Shown here: in pieces, positions 5,469 to 44,267 of the stretch
Layout: each line of letters starts with the position of its first letter
Numbering within the stretch: the first letter of the stretch is position 1
Assembly (NCBI GenBank): GCA_958296285.1
Contig: OY282459.1
Coordinates: 632,367-696,366, forward strand
Direction: 5' to 3'
DNA from: an uncultured Alphaproteobacteria bacterium
GTDB lineage: Bacteria; Pseudomonadota; Alphaproteobacteria; JAPOUT01; G958296285
DNA: 64,000 nucleotides
Notes under the pieces: model-generated
The model's database searches: none
What the model saw: the letters and a program-made list of their open reading frames with translations, nothing else
Told to the model about the DNA's origin: nothing
Program-made: the position numbers and the translations under genes

Positions 5469-5660
5469 TTTGCCGCAGGGGAACTAGCGCATAGAAGCTG
5501 AAGGTGAAGGGGGGTCAAGGGGGGCTAGCCCCCCTTGAAAAACAAGGCGGGCGCAAGCCCGCCTATGCGCGTGGGTGGGGTGGGGTAGGAAGCATTTGCG
5601 AGCAAACGCAGTGCAGCGAGCAAATGCGACCCCACCCACGCGCCCCCTGCTTGCAGGCGC
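5468..5660. repeat. Palindromic array R2 (left half of a split array)
   Basis: It contains module E (the GCGCATAGAAGCTGAAGGTG side, shared with 11371-11448), module D (GGGGGGCTAGCCCCCC), a small GGCGGGC/GCCCGCC hairpin and module A (GCGTGGGTGGGG paired with CCCCACCCACGC). It stops in the central linker near 5660. Array R3, on the other side of the nuclease gene, starts from that same linker and supplies the opposite half. Confidence 0.8.
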
Positions 5661-5706
5661 TCACGCAGGAGACGCCAACATATCTTCGCTATCGCCTCCA
5701 GTAGCC

Positions 5707-6864
5707 CTAGGAAAGTAAATAGCGAGATATGTCAATGTTATCCTTGCCCTTTTTCGTTCTGATTTCCCAACCCTCATCCTTGGGCCAAATATGAACGTAC
5801 CAATGGCAATGGCGGGGTCCCTCTGAACGCTTGTTTAGCGAATCTAGCCAGGGAAAGAAATCGGAACGCGGAATCTGAAACAAGATATCTTCAGAGCCGC
5901 ATCCGAAAAGCAAGTAAGAATCTTCTCCTTGCCCCAGGAATTCCATATGGGCATCCCGAACCCCGAACCAAAAATTCCCTCTTTTGTATTCCCTAGAGAC
6001 GTTGCAGACAACAACCGTCCTATTGTCGTCCGTAGAGTATTCCTTCTTAGATCGCCGTTCCATTGAAGGCACATTGGGATTTTCCTCTTCGAACCGTTGG
6101 ATACAACGATCGTGAAAATCAACATGATCAATGCCTTCCTTGCTGATACTTTCCGTTTCTTCTTCATCCTCTGCGTATTCTGCGACAAAATCCTCGACAA
6201 GCGACAAAACTAGTTTGGCTATTTCATCAAGATGGATGAACTCCTTTGGAAAAAGAATTTCACGGACTTGATCGAAAGTTTGGGCGGCTCCCAATTTATG
6301 CCTAGCCTTCGCCATATTAAGCAGAGATTTAACGCGAATCATCCGCGTATACGGAGCATGGTGTGATCCGCGAATCTGATCTGCTAAGCCTCTTCTCTCT
6401 TTTCCCAAAACAAGCAAAATTGACACGTCTTTATTCTCTATGTCTTCAGAAATTACTTTTTCCCGAAATTTGGCAATGTTATCTAAGTCAATACGATACG
6501 TATCTGAGGTTTTGACTTCTACAACAACAATCCGCTTGCCATATCGCCATAAGCCATCATGGTTCATTCCATCTTGGCCGCCACGGTATTTGCCATACTC
6601 TACTTCAAAACCAAGGCGTCTGCCTATTTGAATGACGATGTCTTGCAAAGCACGAGGAGCATCAGGGAAATTTCCATCCCCAGACAAACACTCTTCAATA
6701 TATTTGTCTATCTCGTCCAACGAGGGGATTTCGTCGAGCCACGCTCTAAAATATTCTATTTTGAGGTTGTTGTTGCTGAGACGACCTACATGGTAGTCAA
6801 GGATTTGTCGTAGCGGTCTACCTTTCAACTCGCCATTTTTATAGGCTGTTATCAGATGGGACAT
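5707..6864 (-). CDS. Putative PD-(D/E)XK restriction-like nuclease
   Basis: This is a 385-residue protein I cannot assign to a named family. Residues about 70-120 (RALQDIVIQIGRRLGFEVE ... NHDG ... RIVVVEVKTS) have the PD-(D/E)XK nuclease layout: a helix, Asp103, then Glu116-Val-Lys118. A charged middle (residues 195-270) and a C-terminal domain rich in aromatic residues follow, which could recognise DNA or a trigger. The gene is clearly more AT-rich than nrdA and nrdB, lies antisense between them, and is bracketed by the two halves of a palindromic array, so it is probably acquired. A defence or mobile-element role is an inference; no methyltransferase is adjacent. Confidence 0.6.
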   Translation of the reverse strand: MSHLITAYKNGELKGRPLRQILDYHVGRLSNNNLKIEYFRAWLDEIPSLDEIDKYIEECLSGDGNFPDAPRALQDIVIQIGRRLGFEVEYGKYRGGQDGMNHDGLWRYGKRIVVVEVKTSDTYRIDLDNIAKFREKVISEDIENKDVSILLVLGKERRGLADQIRGSHHAPYTRMIRVKSLLNMAKARHKLGAAQTFDQVREILFPKEFIHLDEIAKLVLSLVEDFVAEYAEDEEETESISKEGIDHVDFHDRCIQRFEEENPNVPSMERRSKKEYSTDDNRTVVVCNVSREYKRGNFWFGVRDAHMEFLGQGEDSYLLFGCGSEDILFQIPRSDFFPWLDSLNKRSEGPRHCHWYVHIWPKDEGWEIRTKKGKDNIDISRYLLS

Positions 6865-6929
6865 CTCGCCTCCGATTGGTTGAGTGTTCCGTGATAATTT
6901 ACGTCCTGCTTCTTATAAGTCAAGCGAGC

Positions 6930-7092
6930 AGGGGGCGCGTGGGTGGGTCGCTTTTCCTCGCTCGCTACGCCACGAGTGGCTATGCTTCGCTCGGAAAAGC
7001 TTTTTTCCCACCCACCCACGCGCTTTCGGGGGGATTCCCCCCGATCCCCCCTTCTTCGCGGGGGGCTTCGCCCCCCACACCCCCCTGTTTTT
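6930..7092. repeat. Palindromic array R3 (right half of a split array)
   Basis: It starts in the central linker (AAGCGAGCAGGGGG), then module A (GCGTGGGTGGGTCGC ... CCCACCCACGCG) containing the CTACGCCACGAGTGGC sub-repeat, module C (TTCGGGGGGATTCCCCCCGA) and module D (GGGGGGCTTCGCCCCCCACACCCCCCT). It ends about 65 bp before nrdB and lies immediately upstream of it. Confidence 0.8.
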
Positions 7093-7156: not shown

Positions 7157-8116
7157 ATGTCCCTCCTCAAAGAACGCCTCGTCTATAAACCATTCCGATA
7201 CCCCTGGGCCTACGACGCCTGGCTCACCCAACAACGCATCCACTGGCTGCCCGAAGAAGTCTCGCTCGCCGAAGACGTCCGGGACTGGCACAAAAAACTC
7301 ACCCCCGAAGAACGCCACCTCCTTACCCAAATCTTCCGCTTCTTCACCCAAGCGGATGTGGAAGTCAATAACTGCTACATGAAACACTATGCGCGGGTGT
7401 TCCGTCCGACCGAGATTGTGATGATGCTCGCCGCCTTCTCCAACACCGAGACGATTCACATCGCCGCCTACAGCCACCTGTTGGATACGATCGGCATGCC
7501 GGAGTCGGAATATGAGGCGTTCCTGCACTATGCGGAGATGAAGGCGAAATACGACTATATGCAGAAATGGGGCGTGGAGACGCATGAAGACATCGCGAAG
7601 ACCTTGGCGGTTTTCGGAGCCTTCACGGAGGGCGTTCAGCTCTTCGCGTCTTTTGCGATTCTGTTGAATTTCCCGCGTTTCAATAAGATGAAGGGGATGG
7701 GACAGATCATCAGTTGGTCGGTTCGTGACGAGTCTTTGCATGCGCAGAGCGTGATTCGTTTATTTCGGACCTTCATAGAGGAGCATCCGTCTTTATGGAG
7801 TTCGGGGTTGCGCGGGGAGATTGTGGCGGCGTGTCGGGAGATTGTGGCGCATGAGGATGCGTTCATAGATTTGGCGTTTGAGATGGGTTCTGTGGAGGGC
7901 TTATCGTCTGATGAGGTCAAGCGTTATATACGGTATATCGCGGACAGGCGGTTGGTTCAGTTGGGCTTGGAGGAGATTTATGGCGTGGAGTCCAATCCGT
8001 TGCTTTGGTTGGATGGCATTTTGAATGGGATAGAGCACGCGAATTTTTTTGAGAATCGGGCGACGGAATATAGTCGCGCGGCGACCAGAGGGTCTTGGGA
8101 CGAGGCTTTTTCGTGA
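7157..8116 (+). CDS. nrdB: Ribonucleoside-diphosphate reductase beta subunit (class I)
   Basis: This 319-residue R2 subunit carries the di-iron site and tyrosyl radical for NrdA. The ferritin-like ligand set is visible: EERHLLTQIFRFFTQADVEVNNCYMKHY (first Glu-containing helix), FSNTETIHIAAYSHLL (Glu and His), FAILLNFPRFNKMKG, and SWSVRDESLHAQS (Asp-Glu-x-x-His). The ATG at 7157 with CAGGAAA upstream is chosen; in-frame codons further upstream come only from array R3. The first 250 bp are strikingly C+A-rich and the last 300 bp G+T-rich. The HNH nuclease gene begins 12 bp after the stop, so the two are probably cotranscribed. Confidence 0.95.
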   Translation: MSLLKERLVYKPFRYPWAYDAWLTQQRIHWLPEEVSLAEDVRDWHKKLTPEERHLLTQIFRFFTQADVEVNNCYMKHYARVFRPTEIVMMLAAFSNTETIHIAAYSHLLDTIGMPESEYEAFLHYAEMKAKYDYMQKWGVETHEDIAKTLAVFGAFTEGVQLFASFAILLNFPRFNKMKGMGQIISWSVRDESLHAQSVIRLFRTFIEEHPSLWSSGLRGEIVAACREIVAHEDAFIDLAFEMGSVEGLSSDEVKRYIRYIADRRLVQLGLEEIYGVESNPLLWLDGILNGIEHANFFENRATEYSRAATRGSWDEAFS

Positions 8117-8128
8117 GGGAGTTTTGAG

Positions 8129-8860
8129 ATGCCGCGTCAGCGTCAGCCTGATTGGGAGCGTGATGAATGGCTTCTCGCGCTGGATTTTTATTTGAGGCAT
8201 CAAGGTGCGCCGCTCCCCGGTAAGAGGAGCGCAGAGGTTAAAGAGTTGAGCAATAAGTTGCGGAGTTTGCGGGGGTCTTTGCCGGGCTTACTTCCCTTGC
8301 CTGAGAGTTTTCGGAATCCTGCGGGGGTTGAGATGCAACTTTATCAGTTTGTGGGGTTTGATCCGTCAAATGAGTTGAAGGGCTTGCGTCCGACTCGTTT
8401 GGCTCGGGAGATTTGGGACGTTTATGCGGGCGATGCGGCGCGAGTTTCCAAGATTGCGGCACGGATTGTTGAGATGTCTGGGGCGAATTTTTCCATTCCG
8501 TCTGCCGAGAGTTTGGGCGTATCGGAGGCGTTAGAGGGTCGGGTTTTGACATATGAGCATGTTCGGCGCGAGCGCAATCCAAAATTGACGCGAAAGAAGA
8601 AGGAGAAGTTTCAAGATGAGCATGAAGGTCGGTTATTTTGCGAGGTTTGCGCGTTTGACTATGAGAGACGATATGGGGAGAGGGGGCGAGGATTTATAGA
8701 GGCTCATCACACGCGCGCCCTCGCGGACTTACCGCGCAAGGGCACGCGCATTCGTTTAGAGGATTTGGTCTTGTTGTGCGCCAACTGCCACAGAATGATT
8801 CACCGCACCCGCCCTTGGCTTACTACTTCACAATTGGGGAATATTATAGCAAACCCTTAG
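8129..8860 (+). CDS. HNH endonuclease, McrA-like
   Basis: The protein has 243 residues. The C-terminal HNH fold is clear: Cys171-x2-Cys174, EAHHTRAL with His193-His194, and LVLLCANCHRMIHR with Cys217, Cys220, His221 and His225 for zinc and metal binding. This is the arrangement of 5-methylcytosine-specific McrA-type and phage-defence HNH nucleases. The first 165 residues form an uncharacterised, probably DNA-binding domain. It starts 12 bp after nrdB on the same strand and ends 42 bp from the convergent reverse transcriptase gene. Whether it cuts modified or unmodified DNA cannot be told. Confidence 0.75.
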   Translation: MPRQRQPDWERDEWLLALDFYLRHQGAPLPGKRSAEVKELSNKLRSLRGSLPGLLPLPESFRNPAGVEMQLYQFVGFDPSNELKGLRPTRLAREIWDVYAGDAARVSKIAARIVEMSGANFSIPSAESLGVSEALEGRVLTYEHVRRERNPKLTRKKKEKFQDEHEGRLFCEVCAFDYERRYGERGRGFIEAHHTRALADLPRKGTRIRLEDLVLLCANCHRMIHRTRPWLTTSQLGNIIANP

Positions 8861-8902
8861 TTTTATTAGTTTCAAAGGTTGCACCCTATGACTGGAAGCA
8901 AG

Positions 8903-10249
8903 TTATCGTGGTGGTTTGAGATCAGCAAGCTTTTGAATCTCTTTTTCGGCAGTGCGTCTAAATTTGCGAATTTGCTTTTTAATCTTCTGATCTTCTCCAA
9001 ACGCTTTAGTGCTACGGTCAGCATAAGAAAAGAAATTGCGGGATTTTCCGGGTGTAAAGCGGCGGCGCAATTTTTTAGTCCAAACTTTTTTAACCCGACC
9101 AGCCTTCATCTCCTCCAATCCTTTCTTCCAAGTCCTCTTGATAGCGACACGCAATTTGCGCCATTGACGAGACAAGGAGCTCGAACGGATTGATACACCG
9201 TTTTTTTCAAAGTAAAAACCAAGATACTGTGCCACTCTTCTTTCTGGCTTATAGGTACCGTGGATTAAACGCGTGATTAAGGACTTAAAGAAGAATGCCA
9301 ACCCTCCTTCGCGTGTATAAGTGTCATTGACGTCAAAAAGTGTCCTCTCTGTCTTCTTTTTATTGAGGCGCAGCTTCTCTTTTTTTATCAGGTGTTTGAT
9401 CTTTCTCTCGATTCTTTTCGCATAACGAACTTCACAGATGATGAGTATGTCATCCGAATAACGCCGATAGAATGCGCGGATGCTGTCGCAGTACCCCAGA
9501 ACAGCGGCGTCAAAGTCGATCATGTAGAGGTTTGAGAGCACCGCACTGATGGGGGTTCCTTGGGGGATGCCTTTTCGTTTGCAATTCTGATTAAAAGAGA
9601 TACCAGTGCGCTTCAGCTCTGAGACAGACGCGACTTGATAGGGTCCTTTTTTCTTCAATCGCTCTCTGAAGGTTGCATTGGATTCAAGGTCTTCGCGTTT
9701 GACGAAGCAAAATTTGGTTGTATATCGGAAAATTTGAAACCAGTCGGCAGGAAGCTCGGATACACCAAGAATCCGTTTCAGACGAATCTTCAGCAGAGAG
9801 TGGTCGAGATTGTCAAAGAACCCGCTAACATCAAAAGCTAGTATTTTGACAGGAGAGTGCTTCTTGGCAAATGCCCATGCCTCCGCAGCGAAGTCATAGT
9901 TGGTTTTGCCCAATCTACGATAAGCGATCACCTTGTCCGATAAGCTCTCTGCAGAATAGTGATTATCTAGCTTCTCAACCAGTTTTTCTGCATAGTGGGT
10001 GAGAATGCCAGCATCTCTATGCGAGGCATACATGATGTCCCGCTCCTTTTTATTCATGATTCCCTTTCTTGCCTTGCCGCAATACTTGTAATGGGGCACC
10101 TGCTTTTTGTAATAAATAAGTGGAGAGAATGGATGTTTAGCAACAAATTCGGGATCACTCACCTTAATAACCCATGTTTCGGGCAGTGGTCGGTCAAAGT
10201 GTTTGTATGAGCGATTCCTGAACGGCTTTTTTTTCATTTTTCCATCCAT
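8903..10249 (-). CDS. DRT2-like (UG2-type) antiviral reverse transcriptase
   Basis: The protein has 448 residues. Reverse-transcriptase motifs are complete: ILAFDVSGFFDNLDH (catalytic Asp140), GIPQGTPISAVLSNLYM (227-243), YSDD (264-267, Asp266-Asp267), RLNKKKTE and VAQYLGFYF. No maturase, endonuclease or integrase domain is seen, which argues against a group II intron or retrotransposon. The N-terminal pattern YKHFDRPL ... ERDIMYASHRDAGI ... VIAYRRLGKTNYDFA and the late RSSSLSR motif fit, from memory of the family, the DRT2/UG2 defence-associated reverse transcriptases. Those copy an upstream ncRNA into concatemeric cDNA encoding a toxic repeat protein. The leader 10250-10554 is gene-free and structured. 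ATG 10249 has AGGA upstream; ATG 10237 is also possible. The gene is AT-rich compared with its surroundings. Confidence 0.75.
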   Translation of the reverse strand: MDGKMKKKPFRNRSYKHFDRPLPETWVIKVSDPEFVAKHPFSPLIYYKKQVPHYKYCGKARKGIMNKKERDIMYASHRDAGILTHYAEKLVEKLDNHYSAESLSDKVIAYRRLGKTNYDFAAEAWAFAKKHSPVKILAFDVSGFFDNLDHSLLKIRLKRILGVSELPADWFQIFRYTTKFCFVKREDLESNATFRERLKKKGPYQVASVSELKRTGISFNQNCKRKGIPQGTPISAVLSNLYMIDFDAAVLGYCDSIRAFYRRYSDDILIICEVRYAKRIERKIKHLIKKEKLRLNKKKTERTLFDVNDTYTREGGLAFFFKSLITRLIHGTYKPERRVAQYLGFYFEKNGVSIRSSSLSRQWRKLRVAIKRTWKKGLEEMKAGRVKKVWTKKLRRRFTPGKSRNFFSYADRSTKAFGEDQKIKKQIRKFRRTAEKEIQKLADLKPPR

Positions 10250-10554
10250 TTTTCCATCCTATGTAGAGTTCGGGAGACAGCCTTAGGCCCAAAGCTCCGA
10301 CTTATGCCGGACGCCCCCGAACGCACACAAAAATCTGTTAGCTAGATATCAAAAGATATTTCGCTGACACGGGCCCGTTATTACATGGAAGGATATAATC
10401 CAATGATGGTCTTATCAGTCATGTTCCAGTTGGAACTTGACCGAATCAACAATCAAACCTCTTGGCCGATTCCAAGAGGCACTTCCATAGATAGGGATTC
10501 TCCAAACGGGTTTCAAGAGGCAAACAAGATTTTTTCTCGCCTACTGGTAAAATC
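10250..10554 (-). ncRNA. Candidate template ncRNA of the DRT2-like system
   Basis: This is the roughly 305-nt leader of the reverse transcriptase, read on the minus strand. Seen hairpins: a perfect 8-bp CCTCTTGG/CCAAGAGG stem (10458-10479), GTTCC/GGAAC (10423-10436), ATATC/GATAT with a four-base loop (10345-10358), and next to the start codon a GTTCGGG/CCCGAAC closing stem (10316-10322 with 10268-10274) enclosing two smaller hairpins. One frame is stop-free for 41 codons (10540 down to 10418) and encodes a protein-like stretch starting ARKNLVCLLKPVW. GCCTCTTG occurs twice, 41 nt apart. The size and position match a DRT2 ncRNA; the template boundaries are not determined. Confidence 0.55.
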
Positions 10555-10686: not shown

Positions 10687-10905
10687 ATGAACAATAATGA
10701 ACTCCGAGACGCGCTGGATGAATTTCTGCGCCGCTTCGGAGAATTCAGAGATGCCAGCGATAAAACTATCGCTCAACAGGATCAACAGTTTTCCGAACAA
10801 TCTGCCCAAAACAATAAAGACAAGAAGAGGGAATCTCCCTTGTCGGGGGGGTGTGGGGGGCGTCACGCCCCCCGCGAAAAAACAAGGCGGCGTAGCCGCC
10901 TATGA
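10687..10905 (+). CDS. Small hypothetical protein with repeat-encoded tail
   Basis: This is a 72-codon frame with AGGAG upstream of the ATG. The first 50 residues (MNNNELRDALDEFLRRFGEF...) are charged and helix-forming, like a small coiled-coil protein. After KRESPL the reading frame runs into array R4 and encodes only Gly/Arg/Ser filler before the stop. The likeliest reading is a gene truncated by the array; the intact helical plus TM protein at 14432 shows what such a gene might have looked like, although I see no sequence similarity. Confidence 0.35.
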   Translation: MNNNELRDALDEFLRRFGEFRDASDKTIAQQDQQFSEQSAQNNKDKKRESPLSGGCGGRHAPREKTRRRSRL

Positions 10906-11060
10906 TCTCTTGCGAGCAGGGGGGTCGGCGGGCTTTCTCGCGGGCTTGCGCTGACGCGCTTCGCCCGCTTCGTTTCGCCACGCCCGCCGACTTTTCGGGG
11001 GTTTCCCCCGAACCCCCTTTTTTTCAAGGGGGGCAAGCCCCCCTTGACCCCCCTCATATG
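10838..11060. repeat. Palindromic array R4
   Basis: It contains a D-like hairpin (GGGGGGCGTCACGCCCCCC), a GGCGGCGTAGCCGCC hairpin, the central linker (CTCTTGCGAGCAGGGGGG), module B (GTCGGCGGGC ... GCCCGCCGAC), module C (TTCGGGGGTTTCCCCCGAA) and module D (GGGGGGCAAGCCCCCC). It separates the small frame at 10687 from the tRNA-Thr fragment at 11094. Confidence 0.85.
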
Positions 11061-11093
11061 AGGGCGCAAGAAAGAACGGGGACATATTTATAA

Positions 11094-11139
11094 TGGTGCC
11101 GTCGGCGCGGATTGAACGCGCGACCTCATCCTTACCAAG
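11094..11139 (-). other. 46-bp tRNA-Thr 3'-end duplication (attachment-site-like)
   Basis: These 46 bp are identical to 12266-12311, that is, from the anticodon loop to the encoded CCA end of the intact tRNA-Thr. The identity stops abruptly on both sides. This is the segment that tyrosine-recombinase elements usually carry as att core when they integrate at a tRNA 3' end. The DNA between the two copies (11140-12265) carries the 53-aa/two-TM gene pair. No integrase is present. Confidence 0.7.
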
Positions 11140-11370
11140 AAGGGGGGGGGTGGGGGGCGTCAAGCCCAACGAGACGAGTCTCCCCGCGAAAAAACAAGGC
11201 GGCTTCGCCGCCTATGATCTCTTGCGAGCAGGGAAGTCGGCGGGCTTCTCGCGCGCTTGCGCTGACGCGCTTCGCCCGCTTCGTTTCGCCACGCCCGCCG
11301 ACTTTCGGGGGGATTCCCCCCGATCCCCCCTTCTTTCTTGGGGGGCTAGCCCCCCAAACCCCCCTTCATC
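11140..11370. repeat. Palindromic array R5
   Basis: It has the same modules as R4 in the same order: a D-like G/C hairpin, a GGCGGCTTCGCCGCC hairpin, the central linker CTCTTGCGAGCAGGG, B (GTCGGCGGGC ... GCCCGCCGAC), C (TTCGGGGGGATTCCCCCCGA) and D (GGGGGGCTAGCCCCCC). R4 and R5 are near copies placed on either side of the tRNA-Thr fragment. Confidence 0.85.
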
Positions 11371-12265: not shown

Positions 12266-12340
<75 letters not shown>

Positions 12341-12437: not shown

Positions 12438-12650
12438 TCGCAACCCCAAACCCCTATATTCCCAAAACCGCACCAAAAACGCGGAACCAACCGCTCTTTC
12501 TCACCGTGAACAAAAACGATGTGAAGGGCGGCGCTCCTAAACAAGCGCCGTCTGACACAAACCATGCCAAAACGCGATCCCATTCCCATACCCATGAAGA
12601 ATGGAACAAAATCGCGTAGCTAAGTTTGATGATGACGGGAAAACTTGTCT

Positions 12651-14164
<1,514 letters not shown>

Positions 14165-16833: not shown

Positions 16834-16910
<77 letters not shown>

Positions 16911-18169: not shown

Positions 18170-18467
18170 TGAAAAGGGGGGGGTCAAGGGGGGCTTGCCC
18201 CCCTTGAGAAAAGGGGGGGTCGGGGGGAATCCCCCCGAAAGGTCGGCGGGCGTGGCGAAACGAAGCCGAGCGTAGCGAGGCGAGAAGCCCGCCGACCCCC
18301 CTCCAAGAGCTCTTCTAGCAGGGGGCGCGTGGGTGGGTCGCATTTGCTCGCTTCGCGTTGCTTCGCTCGCAAATGCTTTTTTCCCACCCACCCACGCGTT
18401 TTCGGGGGGGATTCCCCCCCGATCCCCCTCTTTTTTTGGGGGGCTAGCCCCCCAAACCCCCCTTTTT
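18170..18467. repeat. Palindromic array R9 (complete)
   Basis: This is one of the most complete arrays. Left to right: D (GGGGGGCTTGCCCCCC), C (TCGGGGGGAATCCCCCCGA), B (GTCGGCGGGC ... GCCCGCCGAC), linker (CAAGAGCTCTTCTAGCAG), A (CGCGTGGGTGGGTCGC ... CCCACCCACGCG), C inverted and D inverted (GGGGGGCTAGCCCCCC). The whole block is close to one 300-bp imperfect palindrome, capable of a large cruciform. Confidence 0.9.
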
Positions 18468-20600: not shown

Positions 20601-21656
20601 ATGCTGCGGGAGATTTCCGAAAAACTGGCGCTTTATCTCTCGCGGCATTTTCAAGAGGCGGAGGTCAGCGCGCTGGAGCGCGTTCATGGCGGAGCCTCCC
20701 GCGAGACTTATCGCTTTCGGCTTCGCTTCCGCGAGAAGGGCGAGGGGGTCGCGGGGGGCGCGAGGCGGGAGCGGCGTCTTATTCTGCGCCGCCAGCCTGT
20801 CGGCAGTCTGATAGAGACGGAAGCCCGCGCCGAATATGCCGCCTATCAAATTTTTCAAAAGAGCGATGTGCCTGTGCCTGAGGTTTTGTTTTTGGAAGAG
20901 GCGGGCGGGATTTTGGAGCGTCCTTTTTTCATCATGGAGGAGGTGTCGGGCTGCGAGAGCGCCAGCCCTTTCGTCTCGGATCCTTATGGGGGCGCGCGCG
21001 AGAGGATCGGGCGGCGCTTTTGGGAGATTTTGGGAAAAATCTCGGCGGATGAGGCGCGCGCGCTCCGTTTTGCCGAGCGGATGCCGTCTCCGAAACGGGA
21101 AGAGTGCTGGCGGCGCGAATTGGATTATTGGGAGGGCGTGATTGACGAAGATGAGGTGGAGCCCAATCCGATTGTCCGCGCCGCGATAAGGAGGCTTAGG
21201 CGGGAGCCTCCGCCGCCGCCTGAGAGGATCGCGCTGGTGCATGGCGATTATCGCACCGGCAATTTTCTTTTCAACGCGGCGGGCGAGATATGCGCCATTT
21301 TGGATTGGGAGATGGCGCATTTGGGCGATCCGTTGGAGGATGTCGCTTGGGCGCTGGACGCGCTTTGGGCTTTTGACGATGCGGCGCGGCCGGGCGGCAT
21401 GATTCCGACAGACGAGGCGCTGGCGATTTGGCGGGAGGTCAGCGGAATTGGCGTAAAAGGCGGGGCGCTTCGCTGGTGGCGGATTTTCGCGGCGGTCAAG
21501 GGCGTGGCGATTTGGACTTCTTCGGCGAAGGAGTTTGGCGAGGGCGCGAACAGGGATCCCGTTCTGGCTTTGAGCGGCTGGTATACGCTGGCGCGGCACA
21601 ATAGGATTTTGCTTTCGCTGCTTGACGGGGGCGGGGAGGTTTCGGGTGTCGCCTGA
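20601..21656 (+). CDS. Phosphotransferase (APH/ACAD10-like kinase fold)
   Basis: The protein has 351 residues with the aminoglycoside-phosphotransferase-like kinase fold. GGASRETYRFRL is the nucleotide-binding strand-turn, RRLILRRQPVGSLI carries the Lys-equivalent region, LVHGDYRTGNFLF is the catalytic loop (Asp and Asn) and CAILDWEMAHLGDPLEDVAW is the metal-binding Asp loop. Such kinases act on small molecules, often 4-hydroxy acyl-CoA intermediates next to acyl-CoA dehydrogenases; the substrate here is not visible. It overlaps the next gene by 11 bp. Confidence 0.8.
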   Translation: MLREISEKLALYLSRHFQEAEVSALERVHGGASRETYRFRLRFREKGEGVAGGARRERRLILRRQPVGSLIETEARAEYAAYQIFQKSDVPVPEVLFLEEAGGILERPFFIMEEVSGCESASPFVSDPYGGARERIGRRFWEILGKISADEARALRFAERMPSPKREECWRRELDYWEGVIDEDEVEPNPIVRAAIRRLRREPPPPPERIALVHGDYRTGNFLFNAAGEICAILDWEMAHLGDPLEDVAWALDALWAFDDAARPGGMIPTDEALAIWREVSGIGVKGGALRWWRIFAAVKGVAIWTSSAKEFGEGANRDPVLALSGWYTLARHNRILLSLLDGGGEVSGVA

Positions 21657-22110
21657 GGTTGGCGATATTTTGCGCGCTGTGTTTTTGCAGATGCTGACGG
21701 AGGTTGCGCCGCGCATGGGCGAGGATTATGACGCGAAGCAGGCTTCTGTTTTGGGGGCGCTGATGGTGTTTTGCGCTGATGAGTATGAGCGCGCGGCGGA
21801 GATTCGGGTTAGGGAGAATGGGGCGATGCGCGTCATTTTCAAGAGGGCGTTGCGGCATATTGGCGCGGGGGGCGAGGGGGTTGCCGGGGATTTGCGGGAG
21901 GAGTTGGAGCGGGCTGTTGAGATGGTTGAGGGGTCTTTGGCGATTTCGGAGCTTAATCGGGTGAATTATTTTTATCGGCGGGTTTTGGTTTGTTTGCAGG
22001 ATTTTTGCGAGGGTGAGGATGCGGGCTGGGCTAGGGATTTGGATCGGGAGATATGGCTGTGTTTGCGTTTGATGGCGGAGGGTCGTGTGGTTCGGTTGCC
22101 GGGGATGTGA
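21646..22110 (+). CDS. Hypothetical protein
   Basis: This is a 154-residue protein. The GTG at 21646 (VSPEVGDILRAVF...) is chosen because GGGGAGG lies 6-8 nt before it and it overlaps the phosphotransferase stop, implying coupling. It is all-helical and acidic, with no membrane segment or known motif; stretches such as MGEDYDAKQASVLGALMVFCADEYERA suggest a four-helix bundle. The DNA is extremely G+T-rich (hand count over 22021-22080: G 28, C 7, T 17, A 8) beside array R10. The partner kinase context is the only functional hint. Confidence 0.55.
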   Translation: MSPEVGDILRAVFLQMLTEVAPRMGEDYDAKQASVLGALMVFCADEYERAAEIRVRENGAMRVIFKRALRHIGAGGEGVAGDLREELERAVEMVEGSLAISELNRVNYFYRRVLVCLQDFCEGEDAGWARDLDREIWLCLRLMAEGRVVRLPGM

Positions 22111-22126
22111 GGCATGGAATCTCCCT

Positions 22127-22425
22127 GTGAAGGGGGGTCAAGGGGGGCTTGCCCCCCTTGAAAAAAGGGGGTTCGGGGGAAACCCCCGAATAGTCGGCGG
22201 GCGTGGCGAAACGAAGCGAGCGTTAGCGAGCGAGAAAGCCCGCCGACCCCCCTGCATCGCGTGAGCTCTTGCGAGCAGGGGGCGCGTGGGTGGGTCGCAT
22301 TTGCTCGCTGCACTGCGTTTGCTCGCAAATGCTCTTTTCCCACCCACCCACGCGCTTTCGGGGGGGATTCCCCCCCGATCCCCCTCTTTTTTTGGGGGGC
22401 AAGCCCCCCAAACCCCCCTCACAAG
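22127..22425. repeat. Palindromic array R10 (complete)
   Basis: Left to right: D (GGGGGGCTTGCCCCCC), C (TTCGGGGGAAACCCCCGAA), B (GTCGGCGGGC ... GCCCGCCGAC), linker (GAGCTCTTGCGAGCAG), A (GCGTGGGTGGGTCGC ... CCCACCCACGC), C inverted, D inverted. The + strand composition flips from G+T to C+A across it. The DsbD gene follows 55 bp later; the remainder of the gap holds nothing else. Confidence 0.9.
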
Positions 22426-22479
22426 AAGCGCGGCAGCGACTTGTCTCCTGCCCCAACCAAGACTAACATCCAATCCGCT

Positions 22480-24495
22480 ATGACCCGATACGCCCTCGCC
22501 CTCGCCGCCTTCGCCGCCCTCGCCGCCAACACCCTCAGCGCCGAAAACGCCGCAGCGCCCAACAACCACCGCATGACAATCCAAATAGGCTCCCATAACC
22601 CCCAAACAACCTACGCCCTAATGGAATTCCATCTCAAACCAGGATGGACAACCTATTGGAAAAACCCAGGAGACGCAGGAATCCCCCTCCACATCACCAA
22701 AACCCAAACCCAAAACATCAACGCGCCCAAAATCCTCTGGCCCCCCCCCGAAAGAATCGCCTATCAAGACGGATCGGAATCCTACGGCTATAAAAACTAT
22801 GTCGCCATTCCTATCGCCCTCCAAACCCAAAACGCCTCAAAAAACGCGACCCTCCGCCTCAAAGGACGCTACGCCGTCTGCGCCGAAATCTGCATCCCCT
22901 ACGAGTTTGACGAAACGCTCCATCTCCCCGCCAAACACGCCGCGCCCGAAACGGATCGCCTGATTGAAAAAGCGCTCGCCCGCATCCCAACGCCGATAAA
23001 AGATCCCTCGCTCCGAATCTCCTTCGGCGAAAAAACCCTGACAATGGAAATGGCCGCGCCAAGCCATAAGAGCGGCATGATCGCGCGAGACATCTTTCTA
23101 AAAACAGACTCGCCCCAAAGTTTCGGCAAGCCGGCAATCACAAGCGAGAACGGCAAAATGACGGCGCTCTTCCCCCGAAGCCTGCCCGACAATATCGCGC
23201 CATGGCGGGCGAAATTGGATATCGTCATTCTCGGCGAAACACGCGCCCGCCAACTCTCCTACAATCCCGCCGCGCCCCAAACCGCCATGAATCTCGCCGC
23301 TTGGCTGCTCCTGTTCCTCTCCGCCTTTCTAGGCGGACTCATTCTGAACATCATGCCCTGCGTGCTGCCTGTCGTGGCTCTAAAACTCTCGCAAGCCTCC
23401 TACGCCGCGCGAAGCCTGTCGGCAGAGAGGCAGTTCGGCATGACGATCCTCGGCATTCTGACCTCGTTCCTTCTCTTCGCGCTGCTGCTCTTTCTGCTGC
23501 GCGAGGCGGGCGAGGCTGTCGGATGGGGCTTTCATTTCCAAGAGCCTGTCTTTGTCGCGCTGATGATGGCGATTTTGAGCCTCTTCGCCCTCGCGCAGAC
23601 AGGCGCGCTCTCGCTCAGTCTCCCCGCCGCCGCGCAGTCCGGCATGGACAGAATCTTCGCCTCTTTGTCGGCGGAGAAGAGTCTCTTTCATTTTTTCTAT
23701 GGGGGCGTGATCGCGCTCCTTGCGACCCCCTGCACCGCGCCCTTCTTGGGGAGCGCCGCCGCTTTCGCCCTGACGAGAGAGTTCCCGACAATCCTCGCCC
23801 TCTTCCTCGCCATCGGGACGGGACTGTCCGCGCCCTATATTCTCGCCCTCGCCCTTCCCGAAACCCTTCGCGCCAAAATCATGCCGAAGGGCGGCGCATG
23901 GACGCGCTATGTTCAATATGGGGCGGCGGCGCTTCTTGTCGGCTCGGTTTTGTGGCTCTTATGGGTTTTGTCGCGGCAGATCGGAACGGCGCCGGCTCTT
24001 CTGATCTTTTTTCTCATGCAGGGGGCGCTTTTAAGTTTAAGTTTAAGAGGGGAAGCGCTCCGCTTGTTCGCGGCGGCGGCGCTCTTGACGGCGGTCGCCG
24101 CGCCGGCTCTTCTCGCGCCGAAGCCTGATACGCCTCAAACTTCGCGGGAAGACGGGCTTCTGTGGCGCGCCTTCAACGCCGAAGAGATCCGCCGCATGAC
24201 GCGGCAGGGCAAGACAGTCTTTTTGGATCTCACCGCCGATTGGTGTCTGACATGCCAATATAATCGGCGGAACGTGCTGAAGGATTCGGAGGTGATCGCG
24301 CGGCTGGGCGCTTCGGACATTCATCTGATGCGCGGCGATCTGACCAATCCCGCGCCGGAGATCAGCGCCTTTCTCAAAAAAGAGGGGCGCGCCGGCGTTC
24401 CCTTCAACGCCGTCTATCGGGGCGGGCGGCGCGTCATCTTGAGCGAGCTCTTGACGAAGGCGGCGCTCTTGGACTCTTTGGGAAAGCCGAACTAG
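22480..24495 (+). CDS. Thiol:disulfide interchange protein, DsbD/ScsB type
   Basis: This 671-residue protein moves electrons from cytoplasmic thioredoxin across the inner membrane to periplasmic thiols. Domains in order: signal peptide (MTRYALALAAFAALAANTLSA), an N-terminal periplasmic domain with CAEICIPY, a membrane core of about eight helices with the paired redox motifs NIMPCVLPVVALK and ATPCTAPFLGSAAA, and a C-terminal thioredoxin domain with ADWCLTCQYN. All the cysteine pairs are intact. The start is the ATG that gives a clean signal peptide; no ribosome site is evident. The first 700 bp are extremely C+A-rich next to array R10. Confidence 0.88.
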   Translation: MTRYALALAAFAALAANTLSAENAAAPNNHRMTIQIGSHNPQTTYALMEFHLKPGWTTYWKNPGDAGIPLHITKTQTQNINAPKILWPPPERIAYQDGSESYGYKNYVAIPIALQTQNASKNATLRLKGRYAVCAEICIPYEFDETLHLPAKHAAPETDRLIEKALARIPTPIKDPSLRISFGEKTLTMEMAAPSHKSGMIARDIFLKTDSPQSFGKPAITSENGKMTALFPRSLPDNIAPWRAKLDIVILGETRARQLSYNPAAPQTAMNLAAWLLLFLSAFLGGLILNIMPCVLPVVALKLSQASYAARSLSAERQFGMTILGILTSFLLFALLLFLLREAGEAVGWGFHFQEPVFVALMMAILSLFALAQTGALSLSLPAAAQSGMDRIFASLSAEKSLFHFFYGGVIALLATPCTAPFLGSAAAFALTREFPTILALFLAIGTGLSAPYILALALPETLRAKIMPKGGAWTRYVQYGAAALLVGSVLWLLWVLSRQIGTAPALLIFFLMQGALLSLSLRGEALRLFAAAALLTAVAAPALLAPKPDTPQTSREDGLLWRAFNAEEIRRMTRQGKTVFLDLTADWCLTCQYNRRNVLKDSEVIARLGASDIHLMRGDLTNPAPEISAFLKKEGRAGVPFNAVYRGGRRVILSELLTKAALLDSLGKPN

Positions 24496-24534
24496 AATGG
24501 GGGAGCGGAAAAAGAGGGCATAAAGGAGGGCATG

Positions 24535-26070
24535 ATGGAACAGAGCATCGGATGGTTTCTCGCCAAGCGCGCGCATTTAAGCCCGCGCCAAGAGGGCATG
24601 GTGGATGTGGCGAGCGGGCGGCGCTTCACCTATGACGAGATGAATCGCCGCTGCAATCAGACGGCGAATCTCTTGAAGAGTCTGGGCGCGAAGAAAGGCG
24701 ATCGCGTCGCCTTTCTGATGATGAATGGCGCGGAGTTCGTGGAATCTTATTTCGCGGTCGCCAAACTGGGCGCGGTCTGCGTGCCGTTAAACTGGCGGCT
24801 GACGCCGGACGAGCTGGAGTTCATCTTGAAGGATTCGGGGGCGAGCATTCTCATTTACAGCGAGGAGTTCGCCGAGGTCGCCGCCGCGCTTCACGAGAGG
24901 GGCGCGAAGACCGACATTCAGCGGTGGATTTGTCATGGGACGCCTGACGTTTTCGCGCAGGATTATGACAAGCTCCAAGCCGAGGCGTCTGACGATGAGC
25001 CGCCGAGCGTGGTTCAGGAGGAGGATCTTCTTTTCATTATGTATACGTCCGGGACGACAGGTCTGCCGAAGGGCGTCATGCACACCCATCTTTCGGCGCT
25101 ATGGTCTTCGCTGACGGCGCTTGTGACGGCGGATTTGCGCTATAGCGATCGTTATTTGATTTTGCTGCCGATGTTTCATGTTGGCGCGCTCAATCCTGTC
25201 ATCACGGCGATTCATGGGGGGATTTCGGTTATTGTCGCGCGGTCTTTTGATCCGTCTGAAGTTTGGCGCTTGATTGAGAGCGAGAAGATTTCGGTCATGC
25301 TTGCCGTTCCTGCGATGCTGAATTTCATGCTTCAGACTCCTGTGAAGGATGAGGCGGATTTTTCGTCTTTGCGCTGGGTGATGAGCGGCGCGGCGCCTGT
25401 TCCTGTGGAGTTGATTCGGCAATATGAGGCTCTGGGGATTGAGATTCATCAGGTTTATGGATTGACGGAGAGTTGCGGTCCTGCCTGTTTGATCAGTCCT
25501 GCCGATGCGTTGGCGCGGGCGGGCTCTACTGGGAAGGCGTTTTTTCACACGGAGGTTCGGATTGCCGATGAGGCGGGCGCGACTTGTCCGCGCGGTGAGA
25601 TTGGCGAGGTTTTGGTGCGGGGTTTTCATGTGATGGCGGGTTATTGGAATCGTCCTGACGCGACTGCCGAGACTCTTAGAGATGGCTGGCTTCACACGGG
25701 CGATTTGGCGGTGATGGATGAGGAGGGTTTTGTGACGATTCATGATCGCAAGAAGGACATGATCATATCGGGGGGTGAGAACATTTATCCTGCGGAGATT
25801 GAGAATGTGATTTTGTCGCATAGCGGGGTTCGGGATGTTGCGGTGATAGGTCAGCCGAGTTCCAAATGGGGCGAGTCGCCTGTGGCGGTGATTGTGCGGG
25901 GTGAGGGGTCTTTGATGGTTGAGGATGTTTTGCGGCATTGTGATGGGAAGTTGGCTCGGTTTAAGTGTCCGAAGGCTGTTGAGTTTGTTGATGAGATTCC
26001 GCGCAATCCGTCTGGGAAGGCTTTGAAGCGGTTGTTGCGGGATCGTTTTCCGGGTCCTGCGCCCGAATAG
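24535..26070 (+). CDS. AMP-binding acyl-CoA synthetase (fatty-acid CoA ligase)
   Basis: This 511-residue ligase activates a carboxylic acid to its CoA thioester through an acyl-AMP. Signatures are YTSGTTGLPKGVMHTH (P-loop), HQVYGLTESCGP (A5), GWLHTGDLAVMDEEGFVTIHDRKKDMIISGGENIYPAEIE (A7-A8) and the catalytic lysine in RNPSGKALKR near the C-terminus. Of two adjacent ATG codons, 24535 has the better spacing to AAGGAGG. It lies 39 bp behind dsbD. The acyl chain accepted is not predictable. The last third is strongly G+T-rich, ending at array R11. Confidence 0.92.
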   Translation: MEQSIGWFLAKRAHLSPRQEGMVDVASGRRFTYDEMNRRCNQTANLLKSLGAKKGDRVAFLMMNGAEFVESYFAVAKLGAVCVPLNWRLTPDELEFILKDSGASILIYSEEFAEVAAALHERGAKTDIQRWICHGTPDVFAQDYDKLQAEASDDEPPSVVQEEDLLFIMYTSGTTGLPKGVMHTHLSALWSSLTALVTADLRYSDRYLILLPMFHVGALNPVITAIHGGISVIVARSFDPSEVWRLIESEKISVMLAVPAMLNFMLQTPVKDEADFSSLRWVMSGAAPVPVELIRQYEALGIEIHQVYGLTESCGPACLISPADALARAGSTGKAFFHTEVRIADEAGATCPRGEIGEVLVRGFHVMAGYWNRPDATAETLRDGWLHTGDLAVMDEEGFVTIHDRKKDMIISGGENIYPAEIENVILSHSGVRDVAVIGQPSSKWGESPVAVIVRGEGSLMVEDVLRHCDGKLARFKCPKAVEFVDEIPRNPSGKALKRLLRDRFPGPAPE

Positions 26071-26082
26071 TTGCTCCCGTGA

Positions 26083-26378
26083 AGGGGGGGTTGGGGGGCT
26101 AGCCCCCCTTGAAAAAAGGGGGGGATCGGGGGGGAATCCCCCCCGAAAGCGCGTGGGTGGGGTGGGGGAAAAGCATTTGCGAAGCGAGAGTAGCGAGCGA
26201 GCAAATGCGACCCCACCCACGCGCCCCCTGCTCGCAAGAGCTCTTGTAAGCGGGGGGGTCGGCGGGCTTTCTCGCCTCGCTACGCTCGGCTTCGTTTCGC
26301 CACGCCCGCCGACTTTTCGGGGGTTTCCCCCGAACCCCCTTTTTTCGCGGGGGGCGTTCCGCCCCCCACACCCCCCTT
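26083..26378. repeat. Palindromic array R11 (complete)
   Basis: Left to right: D (GGGGGGCTAGCCCCCC), C (TCGGGGGGGAATCCCCCCCGA), A (GCGTGGGTGGGG ... CCCCACCCACGC), linker (GCAAGAGCTCTTG), B (GTCGGCGGGC ... GCCCGCCGAC), C inverted, D inverted (GGGGGGCGTTCCGCCCCCC). It separates a G+T-rich 3' gene end from a C+A-rich 5' gene start. From 26379 to 26465 there is nothing else recognisable. Confidence 0.9.
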
Positions 26379-26465
26379 TTGGGGGAGCTTCTACGCCCCA
26401 TCACCGCGCCGCGACCCCATCCAAACTTGAATAACAAAAAACCCAAATCCCCCTATTCTCAAACC

Positions 26466-27473
26466 ATGACCATCACAAAAATCAAAACCCCCGCCGCCAT
26501 CGCCCTCCTAGGACTCGCCGCCTACAACATCATCGCCGCCCTGGAACCCGCAACCCTCGCCCTCCTCCACGCCTACGGCGAAAACCACAAATTTGAAGGC
26601 CATAACCCCGTCACCTATTGCAACGTCCTCTTTATCTCTAACCTCGTCTTCGTCCTCTCTATCCTCGCCCTCTACGGAAAAGACATCACCATCGCCAATA
26701 TCCAAAAAATCACGAAACGCCAATGGCTGCTGCTGCTCGGCATCGTCATCAACAGCAATATCCTCTCGCAAATCTTCTATTTCCTCTCCATCAAATATAC
26801 CGACATCGCCAACACCGTCCTCATTGCCGCGCTGCAACTGCCGCTCTCTGCGCTGCTCTCCGCCTTCCTCTTCCGCGAAAGCCTGATCAAGAGACGAATC
26901 TTCGGACACGCCCTCATCTTCGCCTCCACGATCCTGCCCTTCCTCATCATGCATCACGCCGAAGATCACCATATTCTCTCGCTCGGCATCGTCGTCGCCT
27001 TCGCCGCGATGCTGACCCAAGTGATCACCTTCTTTATCTCCAAAGAACTTTCGGCGCTGCCGCTCGGCATCATCGGAAGTTTTACCGGCGGGGCAGGCGG
27101 AATCATCTTCTTCACGATCGCCATCGGCTATTACGGCACATACCATTTCCACGATCTGATTCTCCCCAATCTTTGGGAGGTTGTGGCGCTCTATTCGGTG
27201 TTTTTGGTTCTTGGGCGGCGCATTTTGAAATACGCCTCCTTCAAGAGAAATTCGCGTCAGAACATTGTCGCCATGTCGGCGAGTTATCCGTTGGTGGCGG
27301 CGGCGGCGGGCGTTTTCATCAATGGACAGATTCCGCTGCCTGCGCAGCTTGGCGGTTTGGCGGGGGTGACGGCGGGGATGCTGCTGGCGATGGATTGGCG
27401 CGATGCGTCTCGGCGGAGCGCCTATGCTCAAGAGCGCGAGAGCGCGCAGTTCCGCGTTCCATGCAATCCTTGA
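26466..27473 (+). CDS. EamA/DMT-superfamily transporter
   Basis: This is a 335-residue inner-membrane protein with about ten hydrophobic helices in two EamA-like halves (for example AAIALLGLAAYNIIAAL, YTDIANTVLIAALQLPLSALLSAFLF, IVVAFAAMLTQVITFF, AMSASYPLVAAAAGVFI). It probably exports or imports a small metabolite; the substrate is unknown. The ATG at 26466 is chosen; in-frame codons further upstream are array sequence. No ribosome site is apparent. The C+A-rich start (hand count over 26521-26580: C 31, A 11, T 8, G 10) reverts to balanced composition in the second half. Confidence 0.8.
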   Translation: MTITKIKTPAAIALLGLAAYNIIAALEPATLALLHAYGENHKFEGHNPVTYCNVLFISNLVFVLSILALYGKDITIANIQKITKRQWLLLLGIVINSNILSQIFYFLSIKYTDIANTVLIAALQLPLSALLSAFLFRESLIKRRIFGHALIFASTILPFLIMHHAEDHHILSLGIVVAFAAMLTQVITFFISKELSALPLGIIGSFTGGAGGIIFFTIAIGYYGTYHFHDLILPNLWEVVALYSVFLVLGRRILKYASFKRNSRQNIVAMSASYPLVAAAAGVFINGQIPLPAQLGGLAGVTAGMLLAMDWRDASRRSAYAQERESAQFRVPCNP

Positions 27474-41775: not shown

Positions 41776-42885
<1,110 letters not shown>

Positions 42886-42892
42886 CGGGCTC

Positions 42893-43207
42893 ACGTTAAG
42901 GGGGGTTTGGGGGGCTAGCCCCCCAAAAAAAACCGAGCGGGCGAAGCCCGCTATAGTCGGCGGGCGTGGCGAAACGAAGCGGGCGAAGCCGCAGGCAAGC
43001 CCGCGAGAAAGCCCGCCGACCCCCCTGCTTACAAGAGCTCTTGGCGTTCAGGGGGCGCGTGGGTGGGTCGCTTTCGCTTGCTCGCTACGCCACGAGTGGC
43101 TACGCTCGCTGCGCGAAAGCTCTTTTCCCACCCACCCACGCGTTTCGGGGGGATTCCCCCCGACCCCCCCTTCTTCGCGGGGGGCTTCGCCCCCCACACC
43201 CCCCTTT
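42893..43207. repeat. Palindromic array R12, running into mutY
   Basis: Left to right: D (GGGGGGCTAGCCCCCC), a GCGGGC/GCCCGC hairpin, B (GTCGGCGGGC ... GCCCGCCGAC), linker (CAAGAGCTCTTG), A (GCGTGGGTGGGTCGC ... CCCACCCACGCG) with CTACGCCACGAGTGGC, C, D (GGGGGGCTTCGCCCCCCACACCCCCCT). From 43029 rightwards it is inside the mutY reading frame, supplying its C-terminal codons and stop. Confidence 0.88.
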
Positions 43208-44267
43208 TTGGGGAGTCTCCCAAAACGGCAAGAACCTTCCGCACCAACGAAGGCAACGCCTCACCCCCCAAACAATCCAAAGCAACCCAACGCGCATCCC
43301 GCTCCCCCATCAATCCCGACAAATCCCCCGAAACCCCAGCAACATAAACCCCCAAACCCAAATCAATATGCGTGAAACTATGCCGAATGCCCCCAAGCAA
43401 AACCCAATCCGCCTCAATCGGAGCATCCCCAAGAAAATCAAACCCCGCATCGCCACGCCACGCCGACATCGGAACCTCCATCATGCCCCCCAAAAGCCCC
43501 CGATCCTCACGCCGCCGCAAAAAAATCGCCCCATCCCCCCGAACCATCACAAACGCCGCCCCATATAAACGCCGCCGCGACTTCCTCCCAACCCTCACAG
43601 GCAAAGAATCCTGATCCCCCGCAGCCCGCGCCAAACAACGCCGAACAAAAGGACACGCCAAACATAAAGGCGACCGAAACCGACAAATCCCCGAACCAAT
43701 GTCCATCAAAGCCTGCGTGTAATCGCCAACCCTGACGCGCGGCAAAACCTCCCGCGCAATCGCCAAAAGCTCCGCCCGAGACCCCCGAAAACGATAAAGA
43801 CGAGACAAAACACGCTCTATATTCGCGTCTATCGCCGCCGCCCTCTCGCCAAAAGCAATGGCGGCAATCGCCGCCGCGCTGTAAGCCCCAACGCCCGGAA
43901 GCTGACGCAAAGCCTCCTCGCTCTTCGGAAACACGCCGCCATAGTCCCGCGCGATCACCGTCGCGCATTGATGCAAATGATGCGCGCGGCGATAATAGCC
44001 CAGCCCCGCCCAAGCCTCCAAAATGACGCCCCTCTCGGCGGCGGCAAGCGCGAGGACGCTCGGCCAGCGCGAGACGAATTTCTCAAAATAAGGCTTCGCC
44101 GCCGCAGTCGTGGTCTGCTGCAGCATCATCTCGGCAAGCCAAACATGATACGGATCGGCGACAGCCCCCGGCGCGGCGCGCCACGGAAAATCCCGCCTGT
44201 GCCCGTCATACCACCGAAGCGCCGCCCGCGCAGGACGATAACGCGCATCTGCTCTTCTATCCGCCAT
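43029..44267 (-). CDS. mutY: A/G-specific adenine glycosylase with repeat-derived tail
   Basis: The protein has 412 residues. It removes adenine mispaired with 8-oxoguanine. Landmarks are EMMLQQTTTAAAKPYFEKF (catalytic Glu), LPGVGAYSAAAIAAIAFGERAAAIDANIERV (helix-hairpin-helix and catalytic Asp), the iron-sulfur Cys-x6-Cys-x2-Cys-x5-Cys in CRFRSPLCLACPFVRRC, and a C-terminal NUDIX-like 8-oxoG recognition domain. The normal end is near VRKVLAVLGDSP; the last 59 residues (KRGVWGAKPPAKKGG... to QELL) are translated array R12. The rest looks intact, so the protein is probably functional. The + strand is C+A-rich here (43261-43320: C 31, A 18, T 6, G 5). Confidence 0.92.
   Translation of the reverse strand: MADRRADARYRPARAALRWYDGHRRDFPWRAAPGAVADPYHVWLAEMMLQQTTTAAAKPYFEKFVSRWPSVLALAAAERGVILEAWAGLGYYRRAHHLHQCATVIARDYGGVFPKSEEALRQLPGVGAYSAAAIAAIAFGERAAAIDANIERVLSRLYRFRGSRAELLAIAREVLPRVRVGDYTQALMDIGSGICRFRSPLCLACPFVRRCLARAAGDQDSLPVRVGRKSRRRLYGAAFVMVRGDGAIFLRRREDRGLLGGMMEVPMSAWRGDAGFDFLGDAPIEADWVLLGGIRHSFTHIDLGLGVYVAGVSGDLSGLMGERDARWVALDCLGGEALPSLVRKVLAVLGDSPKRGVWGAKPPAKKGGSGGIPPKRVGGWEKSFRAASVATRGVASKRKRPTHAPPERQELL

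Follow-up and report, generated by a model that had tools for sequence, protein, structure and literature searches.

Introduction

REP and BIME elements are intergenic palindromic repeats that occur in hundreds and form composite arrays, and we know of no description of flank skew for REPs. Strand-biased mutation beside double-strand breaks has been described in yeast, where C changes to the left and G changes to the right of the break are found on the top strand, in a resection-dependent manner (PMC6786661). In E. coli, mutations arising from break repair are most frequent within 1 kb of the break in either direction (Shee et al. 2012, as summarised in PMC6443146), and the same summary ascribes these hot zones to error-prone polymerases during stress. 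A palindrome of about 250 bp in E. coli is cleaved by SbcCD and forms a chronic, self-preserving break site that is mended by recombination (PMC4213011). The rate of rifampicin-resistance mutation was not raised by this chronic break, and local effects fall outside that readout (PMC4213011).

The window analysed here is a stretch of 64,000 nucleotides (C1:632367-696366) on a single contig of 1,733,000 bases (1.733 Mb) from a small, alphaproteobacterium-like genome. It carries long palindromic repeats, of which there are well over a hundred genome-wide, with a mirror-image strand bias on their flanks. No account of such flank skew was found in literature searches. We consider that the arrays are probably sites of recurrent double-strand breakage and recombination, where the 3'-ending strands are mutated asymmetrically in repair.

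Results

Palindromic arrays in the window and along the contig

The sample consisted of 40 stretches of 20 kb plus the window, which is 863 kb of the 1.733-Mb contig, and nine further stretches around 1.4-1.73 Mb were added later. The array and composition results refer to these sampled stretches, and 1.600-1.672 Mb (72 kb) is masked. Arrays were defined by clustering palindromes of G/C runs. This gave 95 arrays with a median span of 304 bp, 90 of which had 500 bp present on each side and were testable. The palindromic array motif GGGGGGNWNNCCCCCC occurs 312 times and the same motif read backwards does not occur. A narrower form of the motif was absent from each of the 58 relatives searched; the closest of these belong to the same order and share no lower rank. 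The dyad is typically CAAGAGCTCTTG, and a central GAGCTC is present in 41 of the 49 full-length arrays.

R10 (22132-22418), which was recognised from the sequence and as inverted repeat I2, is a full array of nested hairpin modules with outer arms of the form GGGGGG.../...CCCCCC. Its central dyad GAGCTC is at 22263-22268, and the equivalent point carries foreign-gene inserts in split arrays elsewhere. The G+T content is 0.71 in the 500 bp on the left and 0.30 on the right; the G+T-rich zone extends over 21100-22131 (0.61-0.69 per 500-bp bin) and the C+A-rich zone over 22419-23500 (0.30-0.44). R11 (26084-26376, dyad GAGCTC at 26238-26243) is a full array with the module order opposite to R10 and G+T of 0.66 on the left and 0.35 on the right. 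Its G+T-rich left flank (25000-26083) lies within an acyl-CoA ligase gene (24532-26070, + strand), and its C+A-rich right flank (26377-27200) within an EamA transporter gene (26466-27473, + strand). R12 (42900-43269, dyad GAGCTC at 43035-43040, G+T 0.72/0.25) is a full array with a CcrM-type methylase gene on one side and a MutY gene on the other. The MutY reading frame as called (43029-44129, - strand) extends into R12, so that array sequence would make up its final ~80 codons. A further full array is located at 18176-18462 (dyad at 18307-18312, G+T 0.59/0.36).

Composition flips across the arrays

The G+T content was higher on the left than on the right at all 90 testable arrays, with means of 0.625 versus 0.364 over 500 bp on each side in the 863-kb sample. 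At 4236 array-free control positions the mean difference was -0.005 (SD 0.059), and a difference of +0.2 was reached by 9 of them. The first-pass annotation, in which all seven hand-counted 60-base lines proved exactly right, had described a flip across every array. This holds for the testable arrays as a whole, but split arrays and arrays beside rRNA or tRNA genes have a weaker or one-sided skew (0.44/0.40 at 10845-11364 of the window). The window contains a complete 16S rRNA gene (12650-14163) and tRNAs at 12269-12340 (- strand) and 16834-16907 (+ strand), and the arrays around this region show weak skew, as would be expected of constrained sequence.

Fourfold sites were analysed with a home-made gene caller that was spot-checked against Pfam, and here too the flip was found right next to the array. 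Moving outward in bins from 0-200 to 1500-2000 bp, fourfold G+T was 0.87, 0.82, 0.75, 0.66, 0.58 and 0.52 on the left, and 0.14, 0.19, 0.25, 0.35, 0.42 and 0.49 on the right. The fitted decay length is 0.67-0.80 kb and the decay is symmetric on the two sides; fading over about 0.5-1 kb had been estimated earlier. Among codon positions the skew is strongest at the third (0.82/0.19), followed by the first, and weakest at the second (0.55/0.46), an order which fits a mutational effect. Between close neighbouring arrays, a C+A-rich stretch gives way to a G+T-rich one over 1-2 kb.

In the CcrM-type adenine methylase gene on the left flank of R12 (41863-42885, + strand), fourfold G+T rises from 0.74 to 0.96 toward the array. 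Comparison with orthologues in relatives had been suggested as a check on the skew, and the CcrM-type homologues of six relatives show fourfold G+T of 0.33-0.66 and no gradient. No composition flip was seen at single GGGGGGCTAGCCCCCC hairpins in 11 other genomes.

The skew is independent of gene and replication direction

The effect had been reported for +/+, +/- and -/- gene pairs, and it extends to divergent (-/+) pairs: all four classes agree, with 0.61-0.67 on the left and 0.35-0.37 on the right. The fourfold-site profile is much alike for genes on either strand. A cause in transcription or gene-end composition might be thought of, since the arrays are intergenic and G+T differs very slightly in the same sense at array-free convergent gene ends (0.515 vs 0.480). 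However, convergent, divergent and both tandem classes are equal, and array-free gene junctions are flat (G+T 0.49-0.52 vs 0.48-0.51). Equal skew at junctions lacking an array was therefore not seen, the skew follows the array and not transcription, and this cause is refuted, its probability being practically nil.

The skew is also independent of array orientation and of chromosome position. Leading strands are usually G+T-rich, and the arrays might be local replication termini at which forks from scattered starts converge, genes being leading-strand-like toward the nearest array. The sign at the arrays does equal that of a terminus flip and the global skew of the genome is weak, but the gradient should then scale with the spacing of arrays, whereas the decay is the same for gaps of 2-4, 4-8 and >8 kb to the next array. 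This explanation seems very remote.

Long hairpins hinder replication forks, so stalling at the arrays could bare the lagging template behind the fork and would give the correct sign on the side of fork approach. A one-sided, arm-dependent skew is predicted in this case. Instead, the skew is of about the same size on the two sides in every chromosome segment, and its strengths on the left and on the right correlate weakly and positively, not negatively (r = 0.24). Fork stalling is accordingly regarded as highly improbable.

Composition spectrum of the flanks

The 3'-ending strand near arrays has a fourfold composition of A 0.04, C 0.09, G 0.58 and T 0.30, against a background of 0.10 for A/T and 0.40 for C/G. 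Twofold sites were chosen as sites where only transitions are silent. On the left, T/C is increased 8.1-fold and G/A 5.0-fold at these sites; the mirror values on the right are 6.5 and 3.7. Deamination scars alone, as proposed in the first-pass annotation, do not account for this: G/A is also up 4- to 5-fold, so cytosine deamination is insufficient and a second force is needed.

Equilibrium models were fitted to the nearest bin with kappa 2, and they describe composition, not observed mutations. The C>T-only model gave a deviance of 663, compared with 98 for C>T plus a weak-to-strong (GC-favouring) bias, 183 for C>T plus A>G, and 62 for C>T, C>G and A>G with one parameter more. C>T alone fits far worse than the two-process models, and C>T plus C>G without A>G was rejected by the fits. 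In these fits, changes at cytosine on the 3'-ending strand contribute more to the shift than any other component, without accounting for all of it. The second force could be GC-biased repair or a combination of A>G and C>G; where recombination takes place, repair bias would be a natural second component. The direction of mutation on the flanks is deduced here from equilibrium composition and not from polarised substitutions. Read in this way, the flank composition has the sign expected if C changes lie to the left of a common centre and G changes to its right, and further changes are needed too.

Foreign genes at array centres

In some arrays two parts are separated by 0.25-2.6 kb of DNA, giving split arrays, as at C1:863876-866221, 868282-871150 and 872745-875768. 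In the window, two outer array parts at 5509-7085 enclose a foreign gene, with breakpoints +6 and +1 bp from the dyad; the cargo (about 5667-6920) has a GC content of 0.44 and an ORF at 5707-6864 (- strand) with no Pfam match. Interior breakpoints were placed by mapping the inner ends of the two array parts onto full arrays. Of 35 such breakpoints, 25 fall no more than 26 bp from the central dyad (p = 7e-11 relative to a uniform spread, the width having been picked after seeing the data); with strong matches only, the figure is 22 of 27. The inserts, unrelated and unskewed, are mostly single low-GC genes, and about a dozen arrays have such a foreign gene at the dyad. Pfam identifies a ParA-like ATPase, an N6/N4 methylase and an N-6 methylase whose N-terminus is type I R-like among their products; Sel1-repeat and KAP-type proteins were recognised by eye. 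That the inserts in most split arrays are unskewed counts against the breakage reading, and would mean either that the inserts are young or that the split arrays are inactive. The foreign inserts at the dyad give an independent sign of breakage at the array centre, and the arrays may be a hotspot of gene uptake, including the restriction-modification methylases at split-array centres.

The single foreign genes at the dyad could also mean that a site-specific gene-insertion system uses the arrays as attachment sites, the flank skew being a by-product of cutting at the dyad by its recombinase. This is rather improbable, given that the inserts have no visible recombinase, that no common motif or shared ends were found by eye at insert edges, that the joints show variable deletions (-60, -52, +57 bp), and that a REP-associated Y1 transposase (PF01797) had no match in the genome with 72 kb masked.

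At 7157-10500 of the window, a G+T-rich zone (7.5-8.75 kb) adjoins genes for an HNH protein (8129-8860) and a reverse transcriptase (8903-10249, - strand). The two genes look like a group II intron sited where an array flank would end.

Repair machinery

AddA of the alphaproteobacterial type is present, with two matches to uracil-DNA glycosylase, as well as MutY and DprA. AddAB is a candidate for the end processor. SbcCD had been named in the first-pass annotation as the cutter, which is not supported: SbcD (TIGR00619) and SbcC (TIGR00618) had no match in the genome with 72 kb masked, the controls being positive in 13/14 and 14/14 genomes. Thus, of the repair genes whose search had been recommended, those of AddA and uracil repair were found and those of SbcCD were not. 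Y-family polymerases were not found in the same masked genome. Ku (PF02735) likewise had no match with 72 kb masked, using a profile that matches only 1/14 controls.

The presence of AddA raises the alternative that the arrays are uncut and act as two-way Chi-like stops, at which AddAB arriving from random breaks switches and leaves a 3' overhang just beyond. This alternative predicts the same sign, symmetry and fixed tract length. In Caulobacter ssDNA is produced after Chi (PMC5443536). The Caulobacter Chi GCGGTGGT is rare, with 17 copies in the sample on both strands, though 8 of 9 flank copies are oriented in the predicted direction; no octamer was strongly over-represented against a Markov-6 model. 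Since the foreign genes at the exact dyad are left unexplained as well, we regard Chi-like stops as unlikely.

Skewed tracts without arrays and other genome features

Two long tracts are skewed without a matching array density. The first (1447-1482 kb, 35 kb) has a G+T content of about 0.39, with fourfold G+T of 0.27 over 20 kb sampled, and holds core genes such as dprA, topA and rnr. The second (1672-1730 kb, roughly 60 kb) has a bulk G+T of about 0.60. The two flank ~190 kb occupied by autotransporter and giant tandem-repeat genes, and the readable parts of this block contain no array. The order and sign of the tracts resemble those of an origin. They mean that a strand-asymmetric process is not confined to arrays, and they count against the breakage reading, which leaves them unexplained.

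Duplicates of at least 450 bp among the matches listed are all in repetitive regions (1.50-1.60 Mb and 0.83 Mb), kilobases from arrays. In a genome-wide sample, TCGA is nearly absent (163 observed vs 3241 expected, Markov-2), and GGCC and GTAC reach 0.15 and 0.30 of expected. This strong avoidance of some 4-base palindromes perhaps stems from restriction enzymes.

Discussion

Recurrent breakage at the arrays is preferred because no other reading explains at once the symmetry of the flanks, their constant tract length, the sign of the skew and the inserts at the dyad. A break would occur at or near the central dyad, and 5'->3' processing on both sides would bare about 0.8 kb of the 3'-ending strand, that is, the + strand to the left of the array and the - strand to its right. 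On the bared strand, lesions and errors of repair, mainly C>T, would build up along with a GC-favouring repair bias and push sites under weak constraint toward G+T in the left flank and C+A in the right one. Occasional joining of the broken ends around foreign DNA would place one foreign gene between the array halves. Breaks with mutation of the 3' strand had been proposed in the first-pass annotation, and sign, symmetry, decay, independence of genes and replication, and dyad inserts are consistent with that proposal; the details that fail are SbcCD as the cutter and C>T deamination as the only change. The unraised rifampicin-resistance rate in E. coli (PMC4213011) is counted against breakage, as are the A/G shift and the lack of a match to a known hairpin nuclease (SbcC, SbcD) in the genome with 72 kb masked.

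More tentatively, the bacterium may maintain near-identical arrays, of the order of 200 in number, as places of chronic breakage and recombination. The arrays would then cause strand-specific mutation in their neighbourhood, array-to-array repair would hold them uniform, and single foreign genes, restriction-modification methylases among them, would enter the genome there. If so, the genome sequence alone would show where a chromosome broke over evolutionary time and how far resection reached (about 0.8 kb). A local mutation bias would be tied to a repeat family that also admits foreign genes, and break mapping would become directly testable in a non-model bacterium.

The arrays share with REP/BIME elements the hundreds of intergenic palindromic repeats in composite arrays. 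They differ in having no RAYT-type Y1 transposase in the searched genome and in their units, which are nested arrays of ~300-370 bp. Unlike the palindrome cleaved by SbcCD in E. coli (PMC4213011), they occur in a genome where SbcC and SbcD were not detected. The E. coli hot zones resemble the flanks in having their maximum within the first kb on both sides of the break, but they are ascribed to error-prone polymerases, of which the Y family was not found here with 72 kb masked, and strand asymmetry is not part of the summary in PMC6443146. The strand-switched clustered mutation of yeast (PMC6786661), which arises from single-stranded 3' overhangs, likewise has changes at C to the left of the break and at G to its right on the top strand. 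The yeast process is acute and needs long-range resection, whereas the flanks described here show a composition at evolutionary equilibrium that extends over 0.8 kb from natural sites of fixed position, with a G/A shift included.
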